The position numbers and the translations under genes were made by a program. DNA of 40,929 nt, taken from Halopseudomonas sabulinigri. GTDB lineage: Bacteria > Pseudomonadota > Gammaproteobacteria > Pseudomonadales > Pseudomonadaceae. The notes beneath the pieces were generated by a model, which was given only the letters and a program-made list of their open reading frames with translations, was not told where the DNA came from and ran no database searches. Positions 2,248 through 17,596 of this stretch are shown piece by piece (position 1 is the first letter of the stretch; each line of letters starts with the position of its first letter). The stretch covers positions 1-40,929 of the forward strand of contig DRHT01000014.1 in NCBI GenBank assembly GCA_011053055.1, given 5' to 3'.

Positions 2248-2937
2248 TCAGTGAAGGCAGCATTTCTTGAACTTCTTGCCACTACCGCAGTGGCAAGGGT
2301 CGTTGCGGCAAATATTGTTTGTTGCCCTCACTGGCTCTGGAGCTTCCCGCGGCAGGTTTTCCGCCGGAGTTCTCTGGGTTAACCAATAGGCATGCAGGTA
2401 GCGTGCGGCTGGCGCTATCTCAGCTATTGTCTGCTGATGTTCCTGCAGGGTCAGATCGGCAAGTACGGAAAAATTCTCTTCAATGCCATGCAGGGCGATC
2501 GCGTCCAGCCAGGTATCGGCGCTCTCTGGCAACTTGGGCCAGGCGCCCAAGGCAACGCCGCGCATATAGCCAAAGCACCATTCTTCGGCGATCAGGACAG
2601 GCTCCTCGGTGAAGGAGTTCATATTGAAAATGGGCTCAAACTGTTCGGGGTTCTGCATCAGCGAGCTGACGATTTGATTCATATGCTGGATCAGAATCGC
2701 CATGAAATCTTGTATTTGCTGTTGGTTTTCCCACTCCGGCTGCTTGTCAGCACCACCCCACAGGGCTGGCAACCATCGGCTGGGCGGGATCAGCTCTGGC
2801 CCAGATACGATGGCGGTAAAAAAGCCATCCAGCTCAGAGACACCCAGTACTGAGTCGTCGTTGCCGTAGTCGAGCAGCGTTTCTTCGAGAGCGTCCAGTT
2901 CCTCGTCGGTCAGCGGAGCGATAAGTGGAAGTTTCAT
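2248..2937 (-). CDS. UPF0149 (YecA-like) family protein with C-terminal SEC-C zinc motif
   Basis: A 229-residue cytoplasmic protein. Residues 1-190 match the UPF0149/YecA pattern: an acidic start with D-E-E-L-D-A-L-E and L-x-x-L-D-G-F-F, then the central C-F-G-Y-M-R-G-V helix. The C-terminal 20 residues carry the SEC-C motif C-R-N-D-P-C-H-C-G-S-G-K-K-F-K-K-C-C, which binds zinc in SecA and related proteins. The ATG is preceded by AAGGAG seven to eight bases upstream on the minus strand. Established knowledge for the family is a zinc-binding role, sometimes linked to the SecA/ribosome; the exact function is not established. It is convergent with the S8 peptidase and separated from the upstream sulfatase by a strong terminator. 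Confidence 0.85.
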   Translation of the reverse strand: MKLPLIAPLTDEELDALEETLLDYGNDDSVLGVSELDGFFTAIVSGPELIPPSRWLPALWGGADKQPEWENQQQIQDFMAILIQHMNQIVSSLMQNPEQFEPIFNMNSFTEEPVLIAEEWCFGYMRGVALGAWPKLPESADTWLDAIALHGIEENFSVLADLTLQEHQQTIAEIAPAARYLHAYWLTQRTPAENLPREAPEPVRATNNICRNDPCHCGSGKKFKKCCLH

Positions 2938-3124
2938 GCAAGGGTCTCCTTGTTGCTGACGCGGCCTTTGCAGCGATTATCTGTGGATTGGAAATCTTAT
3001 CACTACTGTCGGGCAGGCAAGCGCGGACGGAGTGTAAACGCTGGCGGCGAGGCTCTGCCAGCTTGTGTGCTCTGCCCCGCACAACGGATAGGGTTGCCGC
3101 TTTTTTGCTTGATTAGGTGATAGT

Positions 3125-3166
3125 AAAAAAGCACCCACCCAGAAACGTTCTGGGTGGGTGCTTTTT
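3125..3166 (-). terminator. Bidirectional rho-independent terminator downstream of the sulfatase gene
   Basis: A perfect 14-bp stem (3131-3144 paired with 3148-3161) encloses a three-base ACG loop. It is flanked by an A run on the left and a T run on the right, so it can act on both strands. It lies about 45 bases past the sulfatase stop codon and before the UPF0149 gene, both on the minus strand. Confidence 0.9.
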
Positions 3167-3206
3167 GTTGCTTACACCGATTGGTGTCAGCTAGCGGATG
3201 TGTTTC

Positions 3207-4859
3207 TCAGTTGGATGAGCCGTTGGGGTTTGACAGCTTCTGCATTGCCTCATCAATGCCTTTCTTCAGACTAAGCGTATCGGCGCCCTGGCTTGGTGGG
3301 TACTCCTGCATACTCTTTAGGTGAGCGGCAAGGTAAGGGCCTGCGGCGGTGGGAGCCCACATCTTCTGAGCAAAGAACTTGCGTCCTGCGTATCCCCATT
3401 CATGCGATTGCGGATCCATTTTTTCCATTGGGTCCATCAGCAGATTGAAAAGGTATGGAACGCTCGGATAGTACTTCTCGTCGAACCAGCTGCCATCGGG
3501 CTTGATACCGATGTGCATCTTCCAGGCGTTGACGCGTACCGCCATCAGATCGGTTTCGTCGTAGTAGAAAAACTCTTTGCGTGCTGACTTATCCGACGCA
3601 CCTGTCCAATAGTCGAGGTTGTTGTACCCATCAAGATGGTTTTTGTAGGTCTTGCCGTTCATCTTGTAGCCGTCGAGCAAGTTTTCCTTGATGTCTGGTG
3701 AGCCAGCGGCAGCGGCCAAGGTTACAAAGAGATCCTCGTGGGACTGGATGCCGTTCGCTGAGGTCCGCGCAGGGATATGCCCAGGCCAGCGGATCAGTAG
3801 AGGTACACGCACACCGCCTTCCCACGTAGTGCCTTTCTCGCCGCGGAAGGGTGCATAACCGCCATCTGGCCACATCATCAGTTCGTTGCCGTTGTCAGTG
3901 GTGTAGACGACGATCGTGTTATCAGCAACGCCGAGTTCGTCGAGTTTGGCAAGCAGGGCACCGACCTGTTCGTCATGCTCAAGCATTTTGGCCCGAACGA
4001 TGTCAGATTCCGCGCGTCCTTCGTCTACAGCCTGCTGAACATATTTGTTCTGCGGGTGTGACCAGATGTGGATCGCTGTGGTGTTGAACCAGACAAAGAA
4101 GGGTTCTTCGTCCTTACCTTTGCGGTCGAGATAGTCGAGTGTTGCATCCAGTACCTCGCCATCGAAGGTTTCCATACGTTCGCGAGTCAGGGGGCCGGTA
4201 TTTTCAATGGTTTGTCTGCCAACTCGGCCAAACTTTGGATCTTCGGTCGGATCGTCCACGTCGGTAGCGACGGTGCGCAGCACGCCACGTGGGCCGTACT
4301 GATCGTGATAAGCCGGGTCTTTTTGTCCTGGATAATCCAGTTGCTCGGGTTCTTCTTCGGCGTTCAGGTGATACAGGTTACCAAACCATTCGTCGAAGCC
4401 GTGGACAGTCGGTAGAAACTCATTTCGGTCGCCGAGATGGTTCTTGCCGAACTGGGCCGTGTTGTAACCATCTGCTTTCAATACCTCGGCCAGCGTGGGG
4501 TCTGACGCTTGAATGCCGCGCTCGGAGCCGGGGATGCCGATGGTAGTCATGCCGGTGCGAACCGGCAGTTGGCCTGTGATAAAGGCTGCACGTCCCGCCG
4601 TGCAGCTTGGTTGGCCGTAGTGGTCGGTGAACAGAATGCCGTCATCGGCAATGCTGTCGATGTTGGGGGTTCTGCCCATCATCCCGTGTGTATAAGCGCC
4701 GACGTTCCACATCCCGATGTCATCGCCGAAGATAACCAGGATGTTTGGCTTTTTTTCGTCTGCGGCATGAGCGGGAGTGATTATGACGGCCGCAGCAAAA
4801 CTGAATGCAAAAGCCGTAGCCCTAAGCACTCCTTGTGGCGCCAAACTTAATGTTTTCAT
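3207..4859 (-). CDS. Exported Cys-type arylsulfatase (sulfatase family S1)
   Basis: A 550-residue sulfatase with a signal peptide (residues 1-32, ending A-H-A). The alkaline-phosphatase-like sulfatase fold is visible in order: I-L-V-I-F-G-D-D metal ligands (Asp46, Asp47), then P-S-C-T-A-G-R with Cys86 as the residue oxidised to formylglycine, G-K-N-H-L-G (Lys139, His141), T-A-I-H (His264) and T-T-D-N-G-N-E (Asp322, Asn323). All residues expected for hydrolysis of sulfate esters are present. Conversion of Cys86 requires a maturase (FGE or anSME), and none is encoded in the window. The substrate cannot be read from sequence; the family includes arylsulfatases and marine polysaccharide sulfatases. 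It is monocistronic or preceded by a very small ORF, and ends at a strong terminator. Confidence 0.92.
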   Translation of the reverse strand: MKTLSLAPQGVLRATAFAFSFAAAVIITPAHAADEKKPNILVIFGDDIGMWNVGAYTHGMMGRTPNIDSIADDGILFTDHYGQPSCTAGRAAFITGQLPVRTGMTTIGIPGSERGIQASDPTLAEVLKADGYNTAQFGKNHLGDRNEFLPTVHGFDEWFGNLYHLNAEEEPEQLDYPGQKDPAYHDQYGPRGVLRTVATDVDDPTEDPKFGRVGRQTIENTGPLTRERMETFDGEVLDATLDYLDRKGKDEEPFFVWFNTTAIHIWSHPQNKYVQQAVDEGRAESDIVRAKMLEHDEQVGALLAKLDELGVADNTIVVYTTDNGNELMMWPDGGYAPFRGEKGTTWEGGVRVPLLIRWPGHIPARTSANGIQSHEDLFVTLAAAAGSPDIKENLLDGYKMNGKTYKNHLDGYNNLDYWTGASDKSARKEFFYYDETDLMAVRVNAWKMHIGIKPDGSWFDEKYYPSVPYLFNLLMDPMEKMDPQSHEWGYAGRKFFAQKMWAPTAAGPYLAAHLKSMQEYPPSQGADTLSLKKGIDEAMQKLSNPNGSSN

Positions 4860-5065: not shown

Positions 5066-5318
5066 GATATCAACGCCGCTGCCTGAGCGGCGGCACCGTT
5101 AGGGCTGACGAGGCCGGTGAGGTGCCTTGTGGCACTTTATACATAACCCCCCTAACGGTAATTTGCTAAGCGCAACCCCTAAACAGTTTGCGATCTTTGG
5201 CCCATTGATACCCCGTCAATCAGCGCACGCATGACTGCTATCCTCGGTTGGCATCAGTTAGTCGTCGGCCTATGCTGTGTCATCAACGAGACACCAGACA
5301 TTAAACCAAGGCCCCCCG
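5066..5318. other. Intergenic region between sulfatase side and the selenocysteine cassette
   Basis: No gene or RNA is recognised here. A GC-rich imperfect repeat sits around 5080-5100 and a C-rich stretch around 5140-5185. The promoter of the downstream operon should lie here, but I could not pick -35 and -10 boxes with confidence. An alternative in-frame GTG at 5277 is rejected as start of the next gene. Confidence 0.4.
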
Positions 5319-6755
5319 ATGAATAGAGTACTGCCCGATGGCCTGATAGTGGTGGCCAAGGCTGATTGTCCGACCTGTCGTCTGGTTGAGCCGCTGCTCG
5401 CCGAGATAGCGCAAAGCGATCAGTTGACTGTCTATGTGCAGGATTCGGCCGAGTATGCCGCCGATCTCTCTGGCTCCCTGTATGACAAAACGCTGGAGCA
5501 TTCTTACCGCCTTGGCATCGAGTTTGTGCCAACGCTTATCCGCGTTGAAAACGGTAAAGAAGTAGAGCGTACCTACGGCTGGCACAAGGAAGATTGGCGC
5601 CAACTGAGTGGTGTGGCAACGCTGGGCGAAGAATTACCCGTAATGCGCCCCGGCTGCGGCTCGAAGACGCTGGAACCGGGAATATCCGAAGAGTTGGAAC
5701 TGGCCTTTGGTGACTTCAAGCTGCAATCGCGAGAGATCGATATTGCCGGCGCTGATGACCCGATGGAGACCTGTTACGAGCGCGGCTGGAGCGACGGGCT
5801 GCCGGTCGTGCCGCCCACGCCCGTGCGCGTGCTACGCATGCTCAAGGGCACAGAGCGCAAGCCTGAGGAAGTAGTTGGTTTGATGCCACCGGATCTGGTG
5901 CCGGTTAGCGTGGAAAAGGTCGCTATCAACGCCGTGCTGGCGGGCTGTAAGCCTGAGTACATGCCGGTGCTGCTAGCTGCGTTAGAGGCTTCGCTTACGG
6001 ATGAATTTGGCCTGCACGGCCTGATCTGCACCACTATGTTTGGTAGCCCGATGATCATGGTCAACGGCCCAGCAGCCAAGGCGATTGGCATGAACTCGGG
6101 GGTAAACGCTCTAGGGCAGGGTAATCGTGCCAACGCCACTATCGGCCGTGCGCTGCAGTTGATTATTCGTAACGTCGGCGGTGGTCGGCCCGGTGAGATT
6201 GACCGCTCGACTATGGGTAATCCAGGCAAGGTCGGTTTTTGTTTCGCTGAGGCGGAAGACAGTGACTGGTTGCCGCTGGCGCAGGAGCGTGGCGTAGCCC
6301 CCGGCCGCTCTGCGGTGACCTTGTTCCCCGGTGAAGGGGTGCAGGGCATTGTTGACCAGAAGTCCCGTGACCCTGAATCCCTGGCGCGCTCCTTTGCGCT
6401 GTCGTTGCGCACCGTCGACCATGCCAAACTGGCGATGGCAGGCGATGCGGTATTGGTTGTCTCGCCTGAGCATGCGCGGGTATTCATCGATGCTGGCTGG
6501 TCCAAGCAGCGGCTGCGTGAAGAGTTAGAAAAGCTGCTGCTGGCGCCGGGCGAACAGTTAGTCGCGGGCGCCGGCGGCATAGCCGAGGGTATCCCGGCAC
6601 GTTTCAAGGATCAGCAAGTGCCCAAGTTTCGCCCCGGCGGCTTGTTGATCGTCAGGGCTGGCGGCACCGCTGGCCTGTTTTCCGCCATTATTGCTGGCTG
6701 GGCAGCGTCAGGCCCAGTCGGTTCGTCTCCGGTAACTCGTGAGGTAAATATATGA
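5319..6755 (+). CDS. Thioredoxin-domain fusion protein, partner of the UGSC selenoprotein
   Basis: A 478-residue cytoplasmic protein. Residues 1-105 are a thioredoxin fold: C-P-T-C redox motif (Cys17, Cys20) and the V-P-T cis-proline (Pro71). A P-G-C-G-S-K segment follows (Cys113). Residues about 140-470 form a large conserved domain of unknown function (W-S-D-G-L-P-V-V-P-P-T, F-G-S-P-M-I-M-V-N-G-P, G-N-P-G-K-V-G-F-C-F-A-E). I chose ATG 5319 over an in-frame GTG at 5277 because the thioredoxin strand begins directly after it; the AAGG upstream is weak. Its stop overlaps the ATG of the selenoprotein gene (ATGA), which implies translational coupling and a shared complex or pathway. I infer that the CPTC site supplies electrons to the Sec centre of the next protein. 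The overall reaction is not known to me. Confidence 0.75.
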   Translation: MNRVLPDGLIVVAKADCPTCRLVEPLLAEIAQSDQLTVYVQDSAEYAADLSGSLYDKTLEHSYRLGIEFVPTLIRVENGKEVERTYGWHKEDWRQLSGVATLGEELPVMRPGCGSKTLEPGISEELELAFGDFKLQSREIDIAGADDPMETCYERGWSDGLPVVPPTPVRVLRMLKGTERKPEEVVGLMPPDLVPVSVEKVAINAVLAGCKPEYMPVLLAALEASLTDEFGLHGLICTTMFGSPMIMVNGPAAKAIGMNSGVNALGQGNRANATIGRALQLIIRNVGGGRPGEIDRSTMGNPGKVGFCFAEAEDSDWLPLAQERGVAPGRSAVTLFPGEGVQGIVDQKSRDPESLARSFALSLRTVDHAKLAMAGDAVLVVSPEHARVFIDAGWSKQRLREELEKLLLAPGEQLVAGAGGIAEGIPARFKDQQVPKFRPGGLLIVRAGGTAGLFSAIIAGWAASGPVGSSPVTREVNI

Positions 6756-7291
6756 ACGACAGCATATTGCTCGATCCGACGGCCGAACAGGCCCCGACGC
6801 AGCGTGCGCGTTTGGCTCGGCCTGTCAGCCTTGAGGGCAAAGTGGTTGGCTTGCTGGATATTTCCAAGCCGCGCGGCAACGTATTCCTTGATCGTATAGA
6901 GGAGCAACTGGCGGCAATGGGTGTGGAGGTCAAGCGTTACAGCAAGCCGACCTTCACGCGCGTCGCACCGACTGAACTCAAACAGCAGATGGCCGCTGAG
7001 GTCGATTTGTTGGTAGAAGGGCTGGCTGACTGAGGGTCTTGTACGTCGTGCTGTATGCATGACATAGCAGACCTGGAGTCACGTCAGATCCCAGGAGTAG
7101 GGGTTGCCTCTAGTGAATTTGTACAAGCGGCTGCATTGCAGTCCAAAGCGCTTGGTTTTGATGCGGCCATGGTCTTTGTACCGCACCCGATCCAGGATCG
7201 TACCGATGATGAAATGCGCGCGCTGGCCGATGGCGCTCTGGCGGATATTTTGCGCCTGTTGCGTGCAGATCCTGAGGGCGCCAGCGTTTAA
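6752..7291 (+). CDS. UGSC-family selenoprotein, Sec94 encoded by in-frame UGA at 7031-7033
   Basis: Read through the UGA, this is a single 179-residue protein. Residues 30-93 form a Rossmann-like half (K-V-V-G-L-L-D-I-S-K-P-R-G, then V-D-L-L-V-E-G-L-A-D), followed at once by U-G-S-C-T-S-C-C (Sec94, Cys97, Cys100, Cys101) and a second half with I-P-G-V-G-V-A-S-S-E-F. Support for Sec rather than stop: the frame stays open and family-like on both sides, a SECIS-like hairpin starts two bases after the UGA, and selA, selB and selC follow. UGSC proteins are a known selenoprotein family of unknown reaction. The U-x-x-C-x-x-C spacing is that of GrdB/PrdB reductases. A standard gene caller would report a 93-residue truncated protein and a separate small ORF. 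The start overlaps the previous stop; the true stop is TAA 7289-7291. Confidence 0.92.
7035..7073 (+). promoter_or_regulatory. Bacterial SECIS-like hairpin for Sec insertion at UGA 7031-7033
   Basis: A 39-nt hairpin begins two bases after the UGA. The lower stem is 5 bp (7035-7039 with 7069-7073), then a 2x2 mismatch, 2 bp, a C-A mismatch, and a 7-bp upper stem (7045-7051 with 7057-7063, including one G-U). A five-base U-G-U-A-U loop (7052-7056) closes it. Position, size and a G within the apical loop fit bacterial SECIS elements bound by the SelB C-terminal winged helices. It lies inside the coding region, so it also constrains the residues after Sec. Pairing was worked out by hand. Confidence 0.8.
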
Positions 7292-7312: not shown

Positions 7313-8701
7313 ATGACGGAACTTGCCCAACCACATTCCCGTCCACCAGCGGTGGACAAAGCATTGAGCTGGCCTGGCATGCAGGCGTTGATCGCAAGCC
7401 ATGGCCGCGCACTCGTGCTGGATTGCCTGCGCACCGCGCTGGATGCATGGCGTGCTGGCCAAATCACCGGTGAAGCTGAATTGCTGTACGCCGTACAGCG
7501 GCAGATAGAGCGGTTGCTGATGCCGTCGATGCGACCGGTGTTCAACCTTACCGGCACCGTATTACACACCAATCTGGGCCGCGCCCCGCTGCCGGTTGAA
7601 GCCATTGAGGCGATGACGGCGGTGGCCTTGGGTGCCAGTAATCTAGAGTTTGATCTAGAGACGGGGCAGCGAGGCGACCGCGACGATCACGTTGAGGCCT
7701 GGATCTGCCGCTTAACCGGCGCCGAAGCCGCGACTGTGGTTAACAACAACGCGGCGGCGGTATTGCTGGTGCTCAATGCGCTGGCGCAGCGCCGTGAAGT
7801 GGTGGTATCTCGCGGTGAGCTGATCGAGATTGGTGGCTCCTTTCGACTGCCCGACATTATGGCTCGCGCGGGCTGCAAGCTGCGTGAGGTAGGCGCTACC
7901 AACCGTACTCACGCAAAAGATTACATCGAAGCTATCGGGCCGCGCACCGCGTTGCTGCTCAAGGCGCATACCAGTAATTACCGCATTGAAGGTTTTAGCA
8001 CCGCGTTGAGCGAGGCGCAGCTGGCTGAGATCGCACGTGAGCACCAGGTGCCTTTGGTGGTGGATTTGGGTGCCGGCTCCTTGATCGATTTGCAGGCGTT
8101 GGGTTTACCGGCTGAACCGGTGGTGTCTCGGGTACTACAGCAAGGTGTGGATGTGGTTACTTTCAGCGGCGATAAACTGTTGGGTGGTCCGCAGGCTGGC
8201 ATTATTGCTGGTCGGGCAGATTTGATTGCGCGCATTCGCAAGAGCCCACTCAAGCGGGCGCTACGTTGCGACAAGATGACCCTCGCCGCGCTGGAAGCCG
8301 TCTTGCGCCTGTACGCTGACCCCGACAGCCTGGTGCAGCGTGTGCCGACGCTGCGCCTGCTGACACGCAGCCAGTCGGATATTCAGCTGACAGCAGAGGC
8401 ACTTTTGAGCTGTTTACAAGGCTGGGCAGGTGAGGCGTTCGCGGTAGATGTGTGCGCGGTAAGTAGCCAGATAGGTTCGGGCTCTTTGCCGCTTGAGGTG
8501 CTGCCGAGCGCAGCGTTGCGACTGCGCAGTCGCAGCACTAATAAACGCACGCGTAGCCGAGATTTGCGCACGTTAGCGGAGCGTTTGCGGCAACTCCCGC
8601 AACCGGTAGTCGGGCGCATTGCCGATGACAGCTTGCTTCTTGATTGCCGATGTTTGGAGGATTCAGAACCCTTGCTGGCGCAGTGGGCAGCTAACGCATG
8701 A
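7313..8701 (+). CDS. selA: L-seryl-tRNA(Sec) selenium transferase SelA
   Basis: This 462-residue PLP enzyme converts seryl-tRNA(Sec) to selenocysteyl-tRNA(Sec) using selenophosphate. Length and motifs fit the bacterial SelA family: N-L-T-G-T-V-L-H-T-N-L-G-R (78-90), N-N-N-A-A-A-V-L-L, R-G-E-L-I-E-I-G-G-S-F, V-G-A-T-N-R-T, V-D-L-G-A-G-S-L, and S-G-D-K-L-L-G-G with the PLP-binding Lys288. GGAAGG at 7299-7304 precedes the ATG by eight bases. It follows the selenoprotein gene by 21 bases and its stop overlaps the selB ATG (ATGA), so it is part of one operon. Confidence 0.97.
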   Translation: MTELAQPHSRPPAVDKALSWPGMQALIASHGRALVLDCLRTALDAWRAGQITGEAELLYAVQRQIERLLMPSMRPVFNLTGTVLHTNLGRAPLPVEAIEAMTAVALGASNLEFDLETGQRGDRDDHVEAWICRLTGAEAATVVNNNAAAVLLVLNALAQRREVVVSRGELIEIGGSFRLPDIMARAGCKLREVGATNRTHAKDYIEAIGPRTALLLKAHTSNYRIEGFSTALSEAQLAEIAREHQVPLVVDLGAGSLIDLQALGLPAEPVVSRVLQQGVDVVTFSGDKLLGGPQAGIIAGRADLIARIRKSPLKRALRCDKMTLAALEAVLRLYADPDSLVQRVPTLRLLTRSQSDIQLTAEALLSCLQGWAGEAFAVDVCAVSSQIGSGSLPLEVLPSAALRLRSRSTNKRTRSRDLRTLAERLRQLPQPVVGRIADDSLLLDCRCLEDSEPLLAQWAANA

Positions 8702-10548
8702 TCATTGCTAGCGCGGGGCATGTGGATCACGGCAAAACCGCCTTGATTAAGGCACTAACAGGCGAAGACACCGATCGATTGGCGGAAGAAAAGCGTCGGG
8801 GCCTGACCATCGAGCTGGGCTTTGCGTGGCTACCGACTGAAAAGGGCGCGCCCTTAGGCTTTGTTGATGTACCCGGCCATGAGCGGTTTATCAGTACTAT
8901 GTTGGCGGGTGTGACCGGTGTTGATATGGCGATGCTGGTGGTGGCTGCGGATGACGGCATCATGCCGCAGACCCGTGAACACCTGAATATTTTACGGCTG
9001 CTCGGCGTGGGTGAGTTGTGTGTGGTGCTTAGCCGTTGCGATCTGGCGGATGCTGCGCAGCAGCAACAGGTGGCAGAACACGTTGTTGAGTTGCTGGCAG
9101 ATGATTGGCCAGCTGCGCCGGTATGGACGGTGTCCAGCCTGACCGGGCAAGGCATTGACGATCTACGCGCGCATCTGGTTAAGCGCGCCAGCGAGCTGGC
9201 GGCTCAATCTTCCAGTGGCCATGCAAGGCTGATGGTTGATCGCCGCTTCAGTATTCCAGGCTCTGGCTGTGTGGTGACCGGCACCTTGGTCAGCGGAGCG
9301 TTGCAGCCCGGCCAACGATTGCTGTGTGGCAGTGCAGAGCTGCGCGTGCGTGGTCTGCAGATTGCCAGCAAAGAAGTTGCCACAGTGCAGGCTGGGCAGC
9401 GCTGCGCGATCAATCTGACGGGGGCAGTCACTGAAGATCAGCCGCGCCGGGGCGACTGGCTCAATGCGGTGGCATTGCCGCCAAGTGACCGGCTGGATGT
9501 GGCTTTGCAGCAACTACCTGACAGCCATTGGCACCGTGGCGTATTACAGCTGCACATGGGCACCGGCGTTTACCCGGTGAAAGTAGTCGTGCTAGATGGC
9601 AGCGCTGAGCCGGTACTTGCTCAGCTGGTGTTGGAGCAACCATTGCAGGCAGTCTGGGGCGACCGCTTTATTATTCGTGATCCGGCCGCCAACACCACCC
9701 TGGGTGGCGGAAGAATACTTGATCCGCGCGGGCAGCGACGTGGCCGAAGCAAGCCGCCGCGGTTGGCTTTGCTGCGCGATTGGCAGAGTGCGAAGAGCCC
9801 AGAGCAGGCGCTAATTGCAGTATTGGCGCAGAGCGAGGTTGAACTGCAGCCCTTCGCCCAGCGTTTTAACCTAACGGAAGCTGAGCTGCATGCGCTTCTG
9901 GGGCAGACGCAAGTGCTGCAACTGGCTGGTTTCGTGCTTTCACCAACGCGTAGTGAGCTGGCTTTGCGGCAGCTGCATGCGCGTTTGAGTGACTGGCATG
10001 CGGCGCATCCGGAGCAACTAGGGCCGGGCGAAGGGGAGTTGGCGTTGGTTGCTACCTTGCAGTTGCCGCTGCCACTAGGTCGCGCCTTATTACGCCATTG
10101 GTTGGATGCCGGGCGGCTGCAACGTCAGGCTTGGGCCTGGTATTTGAACGATCACAAGCCGCAACTGCAGGGAGAAGATCAGGCGCTACTGGAGAGGGTC
10201 AGTGTGCAGTTGCTACCCGGCGAACTCAGGCCGCCGATCGTGGGTGAACTGGCCACACAGTTGGGAATGGAGCTTGATCAGTTGAAGCTGTTTTTACAGC
10301 GCATGCAGCGCGCGGGCGAGCTAATTGCAGTCGCACCAAACCGCTATTATCTGCCGGCGCAGGTAGAAGCGCTGGTTGCAGTGGCAAAGCAGTTGGCGGC
10401 AGCCTCGCCCTCTGGTAGCTTCAACGCCGCCGAGTACCGGGATGCTTCCGGGATCGGCCGCAATCTGACTATTCAGGTGCTGGAATATCTCGACCGCGCC
10501 GGCGTCACCCGCTTTGTACGCGAACAACGCTTTCTTGCCGCAGGCTGA
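8698..10548 (+). CDS. selB: Selenocysteine-specific elongation factor SelB
   Basis: This 616-residue translation factor delivers Sec-tRNA(Sec) to UGA codons marked by a SECIS. The EF-Tu-like GTPase domain shows G-H-V-D-H-G-K-T (7-14), the switch region [10 protein letters not shown] and D-V-P-G-H-E (57-62). The fourth G motif reads S-R-C-D (112-115) instead of the usual N/T-K-x-D. Two beta-barrel domains follow (about 175-340), then the C-terminal winged-helix region (about 380-616) that binds the SECIS. Length is close to the E. coli protein. The start overlaps the selA stop and selC lies 21 bases downstream. Confidence 0.97.
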
Positions 10549-10569: not shown

Positions 10570-10664
10570 GGAAGGACATCGTCCCCGGTGGGGCGCCCGG
10601 ATTTCAAATCCGGTGAGATGCGCAACGCGTGTCTGGTGGGTTCGACTCCCATGTCCTTCCGCCA
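10570..10664 (+). tRNA. selC: tRNA-Sec (UCA anticodon)
   Basis: A 95-nt tRNA with the long 8-bp acceptor stem (GGAAGGAC with GTCCTTCC), an extended variable arm, the TGGGTTCGACTCCCA T arm and encoded GCCA end. The anticodon loop TTTCAAA has TCA at 10604-10606. Its size and features match bacterial tRNA-Sec, and its place directly after selB confirms it. It decodes the UGA in the UGSC gene. Confidence 0.97.
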
Positions 10665-11224: not shown

Positions 11225-13228
11225 ATGAACGTTTTCAATACCCAGGTTCCTGTGCGCTCAGCCTTGCTGACCGCTTCTCTACTGCCGCTTGTCGTTGCCT
11301 TGGCAGCCTGTAATAGCGGCTCAAGTTCCGATGATGACGATGAGGTATCCAGCCGTACCGGTATCTTTGTTGACAGTGCAGTAGCCGGGCTGGATTACGA
11401 GGGTGATACCAGCGGCAGCGGCACCACCAGTGCCAACGGCGAATTCACTTATGCCAGCGGTGAAACCATCCGCTTTGCGTTGGGTGAGCTAGAGCTTGGC
11501 TCGGCCGCAGGGTCCGACACTCTCACGCCCTTGAGTATTGTCGAGGGTGCTACCGGCGTAGCCGATCAGCGCGTCAATAACATGCTGGTGCTGCTGCAAA
11601 CGCTGGATGCGGATGGCAATCTGAACAACGGTATTAAGATTACCGAAGCCATCCGCGATATGGTTTCGCTGAACGCCAGCAGCTTGATGCTGGACCAGGC
11701 CCCGGCCGATTTCATCGCCAGCCTGACCACACTGGTGGCCGAGCTTGAGTCCGCTGGCGAGTTTACCGACACCGACTCGCGCGCCCGTAAGTTGGTCAGC
11801 GCAGCGGATGCACAGGCGCATTTCGCCCGCTCCACTAGCCCACGGCTGACTGTGTCAACCACAGGTGGCGAGCTCAGCGGTTTTGAGGCAGATGAGGCGA
11901 CCTGGCAATTTCTTGGCGTGCCTTACGCCAAACCGCCATTGGGCGACCTGCGCTGGCGCGCACCAGAACAACCGGAACCCTGGGAAGGCGTACGTGACGC
12001 TGTGGCCTGGAGCGATCAGGCAGCTCAGAATCCGGGGCTGGAGCGCTTTGGTGAAGGCGGCATGAGTGAAGACTCGCTGTACCTCAATGTCACTGCGCCC
12101 AAGGACGCAGAAGAGCTACCGGTAATGGTCTGGTTTCATGGTGGCGGTTTTACCTCGCTGACCAGCAATACCACACCGTTCAACAATCCCGCTGCGGTCG
12201 CCAGCAGAGGCGTGGTGCAGGTTGCAGTTAATCAGCGGTTAGGGCCATTCGGTTACATTGCCCATCCTGAGTTGAGCGCAGAAAGCGGCTACAACGGTTC
12301 GGGAAATTACGGCCAGATGGATTTGGTCATGGCACTTGAGTGGGTGCAGGACAACATCGAAGCATTTGGCGGCGACCCGGATAACGTCACCATCTTTGGT
12401 GAGTCCGGTGGCGGCCGTAAGGTGTTGTCGTTGATGTCGTCGCCCAAGGCGAAAGGTCTATTCCACAAGGCAATCAGTCAGAGCGGTACGCTCTATCCGG
12501 ATACCCGCAGTTTGGCCGCAGCTGAGGCCATTGGCAGTGATCTGCAAAGCAACCTCAAGGCCGCTTCACTGGCAGAGATGCGCGAGAAAAGCTGGCTGCA
12601 AGTGATGGCGGCATCGGCGGCTCTGGTGCCTTACACCAACGTGGACAACAACTATCAGCCGATCACCGAGCGCGCCAGCTTCGAGACAGGCGTCGATAAC
12701 GATGTGCCCTTCATGTTTGTGGTCAACACCAACGACACCATTGATCCGATCAATACGGTGAAGGATGTCTTCCCGTGGATGGCGCCGCTGCGCGATGCAC
12801 CTACCTACGCCACATTGTTCAGCCATCAACCTGCCGGCTGGAAGGCGCGCGGTGTGCAGGCGTATCACGCGGCAGAACTGGCTTATGTGTTCAACATGCC
12901 GGAAAGCGTTATCACTCATTACCAACTCGGCCTGGTGCTGGACCCGGCTACTGGAAAGTCGCTGGTGATTGGTGACCTCAACGGCAATGGTGTTTCAGGT
13001 TCGGCGGGTGACCCGGCGGATATTTACGCCTCGGCCGGCTTCGATGCAACCGATGAAGTGGTAACCGACCGCATGCTGACGATCTGGACCAACTTTGCCA
13101 AAACCGGTAACCCTAGCATTTCCGGAGAAATTGAATATCCGGAGTACGACGCCGAGACCCAGCAATACGTCGAAATCAGCGACATCGCCGAAGCAAAATC
13201 CGGTATTGCTGAGGAGTTTGCAGACTAA
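11225..13228 (+). CDS. Type-B carboxylesterase lipoprotein (first of a tandem pair)
   Basis: A 667-residue exported lipoprotein. The signal ends in a lipobox L-A-A-C (Cys29), followed by a serine- and aspartate-rich tether. Residues 44-200 form a domain common in bacterial lipoproteins (G-I-F-V-D-S-A-V-A-G-L-D-Y, L-D-A-D-G-N-L-N-N-G). The carboxylesterase/lipase fold starts near 208: F-L-G-V-P-Y-A-K-P-P, oxyanion H-G-G-G-F (305-309), S-E-D-S-L-Y-L-N-V, and nucleophile G-E-S-G-G-G (Ser394). The likely catalytic His is in H-A-A-E-L-A-Y-V-F. A G-D-L-N-G-N-G-V-S-G loop looks calcium-binding. GGAG lies upstream of the ATG. It is likely an outer-membrane or surface ester hydrolase; the substrate is not known. 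Confidence 0.9.
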   Translation: MNVFNTQVPVRSALLTASLLPLVVALAACNSGSSSDDDDEVSSRTGIFVDSAVAGLDYEGDTSGSGTTSANGEFTYASGETIRFALGELELGSAAGSDTLTPLSIVEGATGVADQRVNNMLVLLQTLDADGNLNNGIKITEAIRDMVSLNASSLMLDQAPADFIASLTTLVAELESAGEFTDTDSRARKLVSAADAQAHFARSTSPRLTVSTTGGELSGFEADEATWQFLGVPYAKPPLGDLRWRAPEQPEPWEGVRDAVAWSDQAAQNPGLERFGEGGMSEDSLYLNVTAPKDAEELPVMVWFHGGGFTSLTSNTTPFNNPAAVASRGVVQVAVNQRLGPFGYIAHPELSAESGYNGSGNYGQMDLVMALEWVQDNIEAFGGDPDNVTIFGESGGGRKVLSLMSSPKAKGLFHKAISQSGTLYPDTRSLAAAEAIGSDLQSNLKAASLAEMREKSWLQVMAASAALVPYTNVDNNYQPITERASFETGVDNDVPFMFVVNTNDTIDPINTVKDVFPWMAPLRDAPTYATLFSHQPAGWKARGVQAYHAAELAYVFNMPESVITHYQLGLVLDPATGKSLVIGDLNGNGVSGSAGDPADIYASAGFDATDEVVTDRMLTIWTNFAKTGNPSISGEIEYPEYDAETQQYVEISDIAEAKSGIAEEFAD

Positions 13229-13320
13229 GCGATTTACAACAACAAAAACCAAGGACTCGTCTTCCCGTGTACAGCAAGGCTGCTGCGCACGGGAACCCGA
13301 GCGTCTGTAAGGAGAAACAC

Positions 13321-15351
13321 ATGAGCAATCGCTACAACGAGAAATTCCCCTTTCGTATGGCACTGCTGAGCGCTGCATTGCTGCCGCTGCTGTCGCTGAG
13401 TGGCTGTAACGACGGTGATAGTGACGACGACAACACCGATGCGGCCCCGGCAACGGGCACCTTTGTCGATAGCCCAGTTAGCGGGCTGGATTATCAGGGT
13501 GCCAAGGTCGGTAGCGCTCAAACCGATGCGGCTGGCCAATTCGATTACTTCCCGGATGAAACCATCACCTTTACCATTGGTGATCTTGAGCTGGGTGCGG
13601 CAGCCGGCGCGGAGCAATTGACGCCGCTGAGCATTACCGAAGGCGCAACACAAGCAAGTGATCCGCGCGTACGCAACATGCTGGTACTGCTGCAGAGCCT
13701 GGATGCCGACGGCAACCTGAACAACGGTATTCAAATTACCCAGCAGATCAGTGATGAAGTGTCCTTTAGCGCTGCCGAACTTGACCTTAGCCAAGCGGCT
13801 GCTGACTTCAACAGCAAGCTGGCTAAGGTGCTGGATACCTTGGAAACCGCTGGTGCCTTCACCGATACCGATCCGCGTGCTCGCACCGCCACCAGCGCCG
13901 CTGACGCGCTCGCGCACTTTGACCGCTCGACCAGTGAACGTATTGTGGTTGCTACTGAGGCGGGAGAACTGCGCGGTTTTGCGGCCAACGAAGATACCTG
14001 GCAGTTTCTCGGTGTACCCTATGCCAAGCCGCCGTTGGCCGAGTTGCGCTGGGCCCCGCCCCAACCTGCTGAGCCTTGGGATGGCATTCGCGATGCCGCA
14101 GCCTGGCCCGATCAGTCGGCTCAGGACACCGCGTTGGAGAGTATCAACGAAGGTGGCATGAGCGAAGACTCGCTCTATCTGAATGTTACCGCGCCCAAGG
14201 ATGCGGAAAACTTGCCGGTCATGGTCTGGTTCCACGGCGGCGCTTTCGCCATTCTTTCGGCTAACTCGAAGCAGTACAACAATCCGGATGGCCTGACCGA
14301 GAAAGGCGTGGTGCTGGTTACCGTAAATCATCGTCTAGGACCGTTTGGCTACGTTGCTCACCCACTACTAACCGCAGAGAGCGGCTACGGCGGCTCTGGT
14401 AACTACGGGCAAATGGATTTGGTAATGGCGTTGGAGTGGGTGCGTGACAATATTGCTGCCTTCGGTGGTAATCCGGGCAACGTCACGCTGTTTGGCCAAT
14501 CCGGCGGCGGTGGCAAAACCTACTCATTGATGAACTCGCCTCAGGCCACTGGTCTGTTCCACAAGGCCATAGTGCAGAGCGGCGTGGCGCCACTGGATGA
14601 GGAGGGTGGGCCAGAGGTATCGTTGGCTGCTTCCGAAGCTGTTGGTGAGGCAATGTTCGCCCGCGCAGGCGTTAGCAGTCTGGAAGAGGCGCGGGAACTT
14701 GACTGGAATGACCTGATCAAGTCTGAGCAGGCGAATAAAATTCCGCGCGAGATCTATCGACCCAATTCCGACAATTATTATCAGCCCAATACCTATTATC
14801 AGAACGTGGTTAACGGTATGCCGAGCGATGTGCCGCTGATGTCGGGCGTGACCTCGGGTGACTACACCACCATTCGCGCAGCCTTGCCTATCTGGCTTAA
14901 ACAGCGCTCCGCGCAGTACCAGTCTGAACAGTTCATCTACAAGTTCAGCCGTGTGCCGCCGGGCTGGGTTGATCTGGGCCTGGCCAGTTGTCACGGCTGT
15001 GAATTGGCGTATTTGTTCAACTATCCGGCCGGTATGGTGCAGAACTACTTGCTGGGGCTGGTGTTGACGCCAGAAGGCAAGCGACCACCGATTGGTGATC
15101 TGAATAACAACGGCGTGAGTGGCTCGCAGGGTGATGCGGCGGACGTGTTTGCTTCGATGCGATACGGTGCCACTGATGTCGCCGTAGCCGACGAGACCAT
15201 GTCCATGTGGACCAACTTTGCCAAAACCGGCAACCCGAGCACGGAGAGCACCAACTGGCCAGCCTATACCCTGGCCAACGATACCTTCGTGGAAATTGGA
15301 CCGGAGGGTGAAGCCACCGTTGAGACTGGCTTGGCCGAGTCAATCAAGTAA
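13321..15351 (+). CDS. Type-B carboxylesterase lipoprotein (second of a tandem pair)
   Basis: A 676-residue paralogue of the upstream gene, colinear without gaps through at least residue 400: both have the lipobox Cys at 29 and the nucleophile at 394. I chose ATG 13321 because AAGGAG lies just upstream and the signal peptide begins there; an in-frame earlier codon would add an unlikely leader. Lipobox L-S-G-C is followed by an acidic tether. The oxyanion motif is H-G-G-A-F and the nucleophile motif G-Q-S-G-G-G, differing from the first copy (HGGGF, GESGGG). The likely catalytic His is in C-H-G-C-E-L-A-Y-L-F. A D-L-N-N-N-G-V-S-G loop is again present. It probably shares a transcript with the first copy, 92 bases upstream, and its substrate range has likely diverged. 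Confidence 0.9.
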   Translation: MSNRYNEKFPFRMALLSAALLPLLSLSGCNDGDSDDDNTDAAPATGTFVDSPVSGLDYQGAKVGSAQTDAAGQFDYFPDETITFTIGDLELGAAAGAEQLTPLSITEGATQASDPRVRNMLVLLQSLDADGNLNNGIQITQQISDEVSFSAAELDLSQAAADFNSKLAKVLDTLETAGAFTDTDPRARTATSAADALAHFDRSTSERIVVATEAGELRGFAANEDTWQFLGVPYAKPPLAELRWAPPQPAEPWDGIRDAAAWPDQSAQDTALESINEGGMSEDSLYLNVTAPKDAENLPVMVWFHGGAFAILSANSKQYNNPDGLTEKGVVLVTVNHRLGPFGYVAHPLLTAESGYGGSGNYGQMDLVMALEWVRDNIAAFGGNPGNVTLFGQSGGGGKTYSLMNSPQATGLFHKAIVQSGVAPLDEEGGPEVSLAASEAVGEAMFARAGVSSLEEARELDWNDLIKSEQANKIPREIYRPNSDNYYQPNTYYQNVVNGMPSDVPLMSGVTSGDYTTIRAALPIWLKQRSAQYQSEQFIYKFSRVPPGWVDLGLASCHGCELAYLFNYPAGMVQNYLLGLVLTPEGKRPPIGDLNNNGVSGSQGDAADVFASMRYGATDVAVADETMSMWTNFAKTGNPSTESTNWPAYTLANDTFVEIGPEGEATVETGLAESIK

Positions 15352-15550: not shown

Positions 15551-17596
15551 ATGTCCAACGTGCAAAACGATCAGCTGGTAATCATCGATCACGGCGAGGG
15601 TGATGAGCCGCTGAGTACCCGCAAGATGAACCCCCTGTTTTCCAGCATTCTTGAGGCTCGTCTGGCGCGTCGTCAGGTACTCAAGGGTAGCGCCGGTGCG
15701 GCTGCGCTGGGCTTCTTTGGTCTGGGTCTGGCAGGCTGCAATAGCGATTCTGACGACGATGATGATGAGGATGATTCGACTCCCCCCGCTGAACTGCTCG
15801 GCTTCTCTGCCGTTGCGGTTAACAGCCTGGACGTTATCACCGTGCCAGAGGGCTACAGCCATCAGGTGTTGATTCCCTGGGGCACGCCCATCATGGGCGG
15901 TATTGCTGCGTTTTCGCCTGATAACACCGGCGCTGATCAAGCCGGTCAGATCGGCTCGCACCACGACGGCATGCATTTCTACGGCATTGATGGCAGCTCC
16001 GAAGATGGTCTTTTGGTGTTGAACCACGAGTACGTTGAGCCGCGCTTTATGCACGAATCAGCCGTAGGCGTCGCGCTCGGTAGCAGTGGCTTGCCGGTGT
16101 TTGCAGGCGTACGCCCAGCGGATGAAGTGCGCAAGGAACTGAATGGGCACGGTGTTTCGGTTGTACGTGTGATCAAAGGCTCGGACAGCCAGTGGAAGGT
16201 GCAGTTTGATGCTATGAATCGCCGCATCACTGGCCTGACGCCCATGGAACTTCAAGGTCCGGTGCGTGGTACAGACTTCGTGAAAACGCTGTACAGCCCG
16301 GATGGCACCATGACCCGCGGCACCCTGAATAACTGCGGTAATGGCTACACGCCTTGGAACACCTACATGGCGGCCGAAGAAAACTGGGCTGGTTATTTCA
16401 CCAACAAGGGCGACAACCCGCGTGAGCACTCACGTTACGGCGTACCGAGCGGCGCGACTAGCACCGGACGTTATGCATGGGAGCTGGCAGATGGCGGCGC
16501 GGACGAGTTCATCCGTTTTGATGCCAGCATCAAGGGCGCAGACGCCACTCAGGATTACCGCAACGAGCCAGTGTGCTTCGGCTGGATGGTCGAAATCGAT
16601 CCGTTTGCCCCTGAAAGCAACCCGAAAAAACGCACTGCCATGGGCCGATTTGGTCATGAAGGCGTGGTGTTTGCTCCAGCAGAAGAGGGCAAGCCAGTAG
16701 TTTGCTATTCAGGTGATGACTCGCGTTTTGAATACATCTACAAGTTCGTCACTGCTGACAATTTCAGTGCCGCGACGTCCAACGGCGATATGCTGGACGA
16801 GGGCATCCTCTACGTTGCCAAATTTAATGACGACGGTAGCGGTGTGTGGATGCCACTGGTATTCGGTGAAAACGGTCTGGATGCGAGCAATGGTTTTAGC
16901 AGCCAGGCAGATGTGCTGGTCAATACCCGTCTGGCCGCTGACTTTATGGGCGCCACTCCGATGGACCGTCCAGAGTGGGGCGCGGTTGATCCGGCCAATG
17001 GTGACGTGTATTTCACCTTGACCAACAACTCTGCTCGCACCGACGCGCAGGTCAACGAAGCCAACCCGCGTTCTGCAAACCAGCATGGTCATATCATTCG
17101 CTGGTCAGAAACCGATGGTGATCAAGCTGCAACCAGCTTCAGCTGGGACATTTTCCTGTTTGGTGGCGACAGTGGCGAGAGCGGCGTGGCCAACAACATT
17201 GGTTACGACCCGAACGGTGACAAGCTAACCGCTGACAACATTCTCAGCTCACCGGATGGTCTGTGGATAGATCCGGATAGCCGTGTGTGGATTCAGATGG
17301 ACAGTGGTTATGACGATCCCTACGGCAACTGCGCCATGCTGGTCGCCGACCCCAAGACCGGCGTTCTGAAGCGCTTTCTGATTGGGCCGATTGATCAGGA
17401 GATCACCGGTATCACCATGTCGCCGGACCAGAAGACGCTGTTCATCAACGTGCAGCATCCCGGTGAGGGTACGTCTTCCGCCAACTTTGCGGCAGGCAGT
17501 TTCAGCAGCAATTGGCCGGACAAAACCGCTGGAGCTTACCCGCGCTCGGCCACCGTCGTGGTATGGAAAGATGATGGCGGTGTAGTCGGTAGTTAA
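15551..17596 (+). CDS. PhoX-family (DUF839) phosphatase, Tat-dependent lipoprotein
   Basis: A 681-residue protein of the PhoX/DUF839 family, which are Fe/Ca-dependent alkaline phosphatases folded as beta-propellers. A long n-region leads to a twin-arginine motif A-R-R-Q-V-L-K (Arg40, Arg41), a hydrophobic stretch and lipobox L-A-G-C (Cys63). A run of acidic residues follows (66-74). Family signatures are V-P-E-G-Y, N-H-E-Y-V, the N-C-G-N-G-Y-T-P-W-N-T block containing the Cys that coordinates iron in PhoX, G-R-F-G-H-E-G-V, and S-P-D-G-L-W-I-D. GAGGAAGGA precedes the ATG. The adjoining tatA-tatB pair and the nearby T2SS fit Tat export followed by surface display. A role in phosphate release from organic esters is inferred from the family; activity here is untested. 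Confidence 0.9.
   Translation: MSNVQNDQLVIIDHGEGDEPLSTRKMNPLFSSILEARLARRQVLKGSAGAAALGFFGLGLAGCNSDSDDDDDEDDSTPPAELLGFSAVAVNSLDVITVPEGYSHQVLIPWGTPIMGGIAAFSPDNTGADQAGQIGSHHDGMHFYGIDGSSEDGLLVLNHEYVEPRFMHESAVGVALGSSGLPVFAGVRPADEVRKELNGHGVSVVRVIKGSDSQWKVQFDAMNRRITGLTPMELQGPVRGTDFVKTLYSPDGTMTRGTLNNCGNGYTPWNTYMAAEENWAGYFTNKGDNPREHSRYGVPSGATSTGRYAWELADGGADEFIRFDASIKGADATQDYRNEPVCFGWMVEIDPFAPESNPKKRTAMGRFGHEGVVFAPAEEGKPVVCYSGDDSRFEYIYKFVTADNFSAATSNGDMLDEGILYVAKFNDDGSGVWMPLVFGENGLDASNGFSSQADVLVNTRLAADFMGATPMDRPEWGAVDPANGDVYFTLTNNSARTDAQVNEANPRSANQHGHIIRWSETDGDQAATSFSWDIFLFGGDSGESGVANNIGYDPNGDKLTADNILSSPDGLWIDPDSRVWIQMDSGYDDPYGNCAMLVADPKTGVLKRFLIGPIDQEITGITMSPDQKTLFINVQHPGEGTSSANFAAGSFSSNWPDKTAGAYPRSATVVVWKDDGGVVGS

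Follow-up and report, generated by a model that had tools for sequence, protein, structure and literature searches.

What does the UGSC-family protein of Halopseudomonas sabulinigri do, and is the UGA within its gene read as selenocysteine (Sec)? This question is raised by contig DRHT01000014.1 of GenBank assembly GCA_011053055.1, of which positions 1 to 40,929 of the forward strand were analyzed (40,929 nucleotides, hereafter called the window). The original prediction, made from the window sequence without database searches, had pointed to a hidden selenoprotein gene at 6752-7291, and was silent on the upstream gene at 5319-6755, which we describe here as the constant partner of UGSC. By all sequence evidence, 6752-7291 is a real selenoprotein gene, which adds a member to the known UGSC family. 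For the function, we propose with about even confidence that 5319-7291 encodes a two-subunit thioredoxin-driven reductase selenoenzyme, for which the Sec genes behind it would supply selenocysteine.

Recoding of the UGA and co-retention of the Sec system

The features on which the recoding is judged are listed below.

6752..7291, + strand: UGSC-family selenoprotein gene, 179 amino acids (aa) with the UGA read through, matching NF041046 and PF24696
7031..7033, + strand: UGA codon (Sec94), conserved as TGA in relatives
7034..7074, + strand: predicted Sec insertion sequence (SECIS) hairpin with a conserved apical stem-loop (7045-7063; loop 7052-7056)
7313..8701, + strand: selA, selenocysteine synthase (TIGR00474, 579.4 bits)
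8698..10548, + strand: selB, Sec-specific elongation factor (TIGR00475, 372.9 bits)
10570..10664, + strand: selC, tRNA-Sec with anticodon TCA (RF01852, 79.9 bits)

The ATG frame of 6752-7291 contains a single in-frame TGA, and reading it as U gives one protein across the codon with U94-G-S-C-T-S-C-C, as had been predicted; the U/C-G-S-C family motif is present in this protein and its relatives. With C in place of U, the protein passes both curated cut-offs, which confirms the predicted family membership: 148.6 bits (cut-off 125) for "UGSC family (seleno)protein" of NCBIfam (NF041046) and 142.1 bits (cut-off 25) for Pfam PF24696. Conventional open reading frame (ORF) calling of the 6752 frame ends after 93 aa, and fragments of 98-118 aa make up 95 of the 120 database relatives listed (of 225 found), in agreement with the expectation that annotation splits such genes. 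At the Sec column of alignment A1, three full-length database rows show Trp or Arg instead, perhaps by gene calling across the TGA.

Relatives at the DNA level were taken as the best 80 of 387 in a scan of species genomes (L008-L087). Of the named ones, Pseudomonas neustonica is closest (96% identity), and Halopseudomonas species come next. The codon aligned to Sec94 is TGA in 80/80 of the scan relatives. Homologues ending at the UGA had been named beforehand as evidence against recoding; the protein match runs on beyond this codon in all 80 loci, with conservation on both sides. When seven loci from whole-genome searches are added (L001-L007, with the window itself recurring as L001 and L003), TGA is found in 85/87 and TGC in the other two (L004 and L006). 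These two, together with many Cys rows among the database proteins, provide the Cys homologues with which an alignment had been recommended.

Directly 3' of the UGA, a 41-nt hairpin is predicted (-20.7 kcal/mol, z -3.98), and 0/200 shuffles fold as well. The hairpin of the original prediction thus stands, and its length and start are revised, since 39 nt beginning two bases past the UGA had been given. The 7-bp apical stem is kept over 61 distinct sequences, with one pair broken in 3 rows, and RNAalifold retains this stem alone, with changes on both sides at two pairs; the lower stem is poorly kept and is present in only part of these sequences. The hairpin did not exceed shuffled controls in its count of pair types (266 of 500), the covariation score was nearly equal when the partner columns were slid by -2 (0.089 vs 0.093 unslid), and an Rfam search of the hairpin stretch gave no family at gathering score.

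As had also been predicted, selA, selB, and selC lie directly behind the gene on the same strand, and with selD on another contig (434.2 bits, without in-frame stop) all four genes are present in the genome. Among 37 genomes of the same genus, own included, UGSC scores over the family cut-off in 27, and selB is over its cut-off in 27/27 of these. Of the 10 UGSC-less genomes, selB was found in G416 only and tRNA-Sec over the gathering score in G416 and G424; both are contig-end cases, the contig stopping inside selA in G416 and starting inside selB in G424. Neither selB nor tRNA-Sec was found in the remaining eight, among which the absence is weaker evidence for G401, G406, and G428 because these are 75-92% complete. 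One genome with UGSC (G411; 81% complete, selB match at a contig edge) gave no tRNA-Sec over the gathering score. Fisher's exact test for 27/0 vs 1/9 gives 8e-8, which is not an independent probability because the genomes are related. Three genomes of the genus (G412, G417, and G420) have a second selB over the cut-off and therefore probably a second Sec locus. In 21 genomes from elsewhere in the order, G436 combines an under-cut-off UGSC match with selB and tRNA-Sec, G444 and G451 have selB over the cut-off but no UGSC, and G439 and G452 show nothing beyond weak tRNA-Sec matches. For a Sec-type formate dehydrogenase in the H. sabulinigri genome, the TIGR01553 match was under the cut-off and had no in-frame stop, no search for other selenoprotein families having been made. 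The genus pattern suggests that one selenoprotein may suffice to keep the whole Sec system.

Recoding of UGA 7031-7033 as Sec is well supported by the conserved TGA, the conserved apical hairpin, and the adjoining Sec genes, as the original prediction had stated, and the co-retention of UGSC with selB and tRNA-Sec adds evidence that it did not hold. On the alternative that translation simply ends at the UGA, the gene would be a degraded one, left with a 93-aa product and a C-terminal fragment, as standard ORF calling and the many fragment records in databases would have it. A degraded gene is hard to reconcile with a TGA that has matching protein on either side in all the scan relatives, with a conserved apical hairpin, with the existence of a Cys form in genome G143, and with the joint loss of UGSC, selB, and tRNA-Sec in members of the genus, and we consider it extremely improbable. 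The order of the Sec genes varies among the loci: in L015 and L017 UGSC is followed by selB with no selA found in the locus, and in L062 selB precedes selA.

The partner protein and a proposed two-subunit reductase

The gene directly upstream of UGSC has the following parts.

5319..6755, + strand: partner gene with a thioredoxin-like (CPTC) domain and a domain called Unk1 (ATG start at 5319; alternative longer GTG start at 5277)
5322..5640, + strand: thioredoxin-like domain of the partner, with C16/C19 in the partner alignment numbering
5760..6752, + strand: Unk1 domain, ~330 residues, without Pfam/NCBIfam match above cut-off
6752..6755, + strand: ATGA overlap of the partner stop and the UGSC start, the same overlap type being found in 65/79 loci

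The overlap suggests translational coupling. Since L028 begins inside UGSC, it was left out and 79 of the 80 scan loci were counted for Unk1; in 79/79 Unk1 precedes UGSC and shares its strand. The gap between partner and UGSC is at most 33 nt, the exception being L048 with its broken partner frame. The gene next after UGSC is selA or selB in 54/79 loci. A thioredoxin domain was detected in 80/85 loci. Among 84 aligned partner rows, Cys307, Asp158, Asp294, and Glu310 of Unk1 are found in all, Cys209 in 83, the linker Cys112 in 81, and the thioredoxin CxxC in 80. In a phylum sample of 398 genomes (UGSC at E up to 0.001, Unk1 at E up to 1e-8), UGSC and Unk1 co-occur in the same five, own included; in G139, one of the five, UGSC matched twice and Unk1 three times. 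From these comparisons, a protein with Unk1, usually behind a thioredoxin domain, appears as the constant partner of UGSC. Unk1 gave no significant match among PDB sequences; the AlphaFold model of the partner has a mean predicted local distance difference test (pLDDT) score of 89.6, and a further structural comparison, which covered its residues 1-98, likened this N-terminal domain to thioredoxin.

Some divergent copies of the module have neighbors that hint at an electron source and a substrate. In a Cys form (L144 of G143), the C4-dicarboxylate transporter DctA is encoded directly upstream of the partner (564 bits, over cut-off), and beyond it are a GntR-type regulator, a thioredoxin reductase (2494-3495; TIGR01292, 403 bits, over cut-off) that is close to the Cys-form module, and a LysR-type regulator. 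In the second copy of G139 (L146), the partner lacks a fused thioredoxin domain, and a thioredoxin-reductase-like flavoprotein with a CAHCD motif is found directly upstream of UGSC (TIGR01292, 169 bits, under the cut-off of 343); an enoyl-coenzyme A (CoA) hydratase also precedes this divergent UGSC. A third copy with Cys at the Sec site (L147 of G277) is near two acyl-CoA dehydrogenase-family genes, an acyl-CoA ligase, and a 2-hydroxyacid dehydrogenase, with a TctC receptor and an enoyl-CoA hydratase as further neighbors. These three divergent loci hint at a context of carboxylate catabolism.

In the reductase proposed here, electrons would pass from NADPH (reduced nicotinamide adenine dinucleotide phosphate) via thioredoxin reductase to the thioredoxin domain of the partner, the probable electron deliverer, and from there to a Sec94/Cys97 selenylsulfide. 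Unk1 would probably be the substrate binder; the Sec94 selenolate would attack the substrate held by Unk1, a bond would be cleaved reductively, and the selenylsulfide left after cleavage would be reduced again. The electron path and the contact between the subunits are what we infer, while the gene pair and its overlap, the conserved redox residues, the recoding signals, and the co-retention of the Sec system can be read directly from the sequences. The substrate may be a small carboxylate or a CoA-linked compound, because the divergent copies adjoin DctA, acyl-CoA dehydrogenases, an acyl-CoA ligase, a 2-hydroxyacid dehydrogenase, and enoyl-CoA hydratases. A more far-reaching version, which we put forward only tentatively, is that the pair forms a new two-subunit thioredoxin-driven class, a counterpart of glycine and D-proline reductases in Pseudomonadaceae and others, that cleaves a small carboxylate reductively, and that the genus keeps its Sec system essentially for this enzyme.

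Several points weigh against the proposed reductase. Thioredoxin reductase neighbors were found in 2/86 loci searched and DctA in 1/86, and the hints at electron source and substrate accordingly come from a small number of loci, none of them among the close relatives. Of the five phylum genomes with UGSC, two pass the NF041046 cut-off and the other three match it only at lower scores, and the phylum search for Unk1 scored at most five candidates per genome. A class I fumarase was tried as an identity for Unk1 and rejected for now, the Foldseek match (E 4e-4) having a template modeling (TM) score of about 0.2 and the profile comparison with 30 fumarases a probability of 0.07%. The same redox residues, moreover, would fit the reduction of peroxides or disulfides.

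Peroxide defense and the GrdB/PrdB superfamily

The AlphaFold model of UGSC (mean pLDDT 91.7) contains the strand-helix unit five times and matches flavodoxin and receiver structures, so far as a prediction can tell. In this five-strand alternating flavodoxin-like domain, the prediction puts Sec94 and Cys97 where the third strand ends. The model bears on the reading of UGSC as a thiol or peroxide defense enzyme, that is, a peroxidase or disulfide reductase with Unk1 as an accessory. The UxxC motif and the thioredoxin-domain partner speak for such an enzyme, and in the 2008 ocean survey the majority of selenoprotein sequences (2887, 82.3%) went to the thiol oxidoreductase or thioredoxin (Trx)-like families (PMC2398784). 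Against it, the predicted strand and helix order of UGSC appears to differ from the thioredoxin-type order, and two divergent copies have genes for an acyl-CoA ligase, an acyl-CoA dehydrogenase, or an enoyl-CoA hydratase in their vicinity. The thioredoxin-type order is that of peroxiredoxins and glutathione peroxidases. To our knowledge, peroxidases rarely need a constant second-subunit domain of about 330 residues, which also counts against a defense enzyme, and we think this reading rather unlikely.

UGSC might instead be a distant member of the superfamily of glycine, sarcosine, betaine, and D-proline reductases (GrdB/PrdB; PF07355, TIGR01918, and TIGR04483), with Unk1 in place of the substrate-binding pro-protein and with a reductive C-N-type cleavage next to a carboxylate; we hold this to be possible and doubtful. 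The UGSC motif resembles that of GrdB. When 105 UGSC rows (61 after the program filter) were compared with 89 GrdB rows by hhalign, the probability was 74.7% with a score of 42.9 (single-comparison E 2.6e-5), and 0/200 column shuffles reached this score, the highest being 24.8. Control profiles of Unk1 and fumarase scored 13-18, and GrdB against PrdB, the positive control, gave 97.5%; UGSC against PrdB-like proteins gave only 5% (score 25.8), with the CxxC motifs in register in earlier runs. The UxxCxxC of GrdB is present in the window UGSC and its close relatives, and four positions counted from the redox motif have their commonest residue in common among UGSC, GrdB, and PrdB (+15 Glu, +18 Gly, +19 Ile, and +22 Val). 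Rossmann-like folds commonly show a layout of this sort behind the motif, which is a point against the membership. When UGSC residues 94-101 were masked, the GrdB score fell to 17.6, the level of unrelated controls, and a reversed GrdB profile still scored 27.5. The anchored flank test was negative, the GrdB mean being reached by 28.6% and the PrdB mean by 31.9% of 91 other CxxC sites, and the GrdB mean also by 12.1% of 2660 random positions. A later HP motif is out of register (+51/52 in UGSC, +46 to +48 in 51/86 GrdB rows, and FP at +44 in PrdB), the HPLGN pattern not being found in 35/86 GrdB rows. The third Cys of UxxCxxC is absent in the divergent UGSC of L006, L007, and L149, and none of 24 UGSC members matched PF07355 when E values up to 10 were allowed, as far as the filters of HMMER let matches through. 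Homology with GrdB/PrdB is not established, because motif masking removes the profile signal and the flank test is negative; by analogy, UGSC may possibly work in the manner of GrdB. A sequence search for a solved GrdB structure found none. Seven PF07355-type matches without in-frame stops were found in Pseudomonadota (L088-L094), and the five inspected (L088-L091 and L093; 301-314 aa) are remote, Sec-less relatives of PrdB that carry P-N-C-P-[VI]-C-H-Q.

Neighboring genes and comparison with known systems

Besides the partner and the Sec genes, no widely recurring neighbor was found in a clustering of the compared loci. The transporter and enzyme genes seen beside L144 and L147 are sporadic over the 86 loci (TctC in 7, BhcC-like in 2, and DctA as counted above), and a short-chain dehydrogenase comes directly after UGSC in five close loci (L063 and L066-L069). 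The surroundings of the first copy of G139 (L145) are ABC (ATP-binding cassette) transporter, LysR, and luciferase-like genes, and those of L149 (G436) are TonB-receptor, RPE65-family, and other genes. In L146, L147, and L149 UGSC stands before Unk1, and in L146 (5077-7049, - strand) a tandem pair of Unk1 domains is behind one divergent UGSC. The UGSC-like gene of L147 (8281-8592, - strand, contig C6 of G277) has an in-frame TGA 30 codons after the Cys at the Sec site, which aligns to a Trp of L149 (F-stop-P vs F-W-P) and possibly reflects a sequencing error or a dying copy. In the window, two tandem carboxylesterase-family proteins are encoded behind tRNA-Sec (11225-15351), the family being present in seven compared loci, window included, and the module is flanked on its two sides by a PhoX alkaline phosphatase (15551-17596) and a sulfatase-family protein (3207-4859).

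The UGSC family is known and its reaction is not, as the original prediction had noted: curated family models are matched, and the UGSC passages available in the literature give no reaction. In those passages, the 2008 survey counts UGSC among the major selenoprotein families, assigns it a likely Trx-like fold, and mentions a UGSC/Unknown_1 fusion, whose Unknown_1 part may be Unk1 (PMC2398784). UGSC is among the selenoproteins of largely uncharacterized function in a 2026 review (PMC13188914), and UGSC-motif selenoproteins are cited for Geodermatophilaceae in a passage giving the tRNA-Sec anticodon as CUA (PMC5330540). A literature search for Halopseudomonas with selenocysteine gave no match. 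Beyond the original prediction, the comparisons add the constant partner, the co-retention of the Sec system, and an electron path that can be tested; with a constant partner and a likely electron source, the UGSC reaction can now be tested by a defined reconstitution.

Compared with known systems, the gene itself is an ordinary UGSC-family member, with scores over both cut-offs, the UGSC motif, and the Sec codon; the available passages of the family literature mention neither a constant Unk1 partner nor co-retention with selB nor a flavodoxin-like model. The N-terminal domain of the partner resembles thioredoxin, in contrast to UGSC itself, which is predicted as five alternating strand-helix units. 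Unlike GrdB/PrdB, UGSC is without a match to that family, is shorter (179 vs about 435 aa), and gives a profile signal that depends on the motif. It shares with them the UxxCxxC as in GrdB, the layout of residues after the motif, and a second, here proposed, subunit, and thioredoxin is likewise the reductant of glycine reductase, as stated in the 2026 review (PMC13188914).

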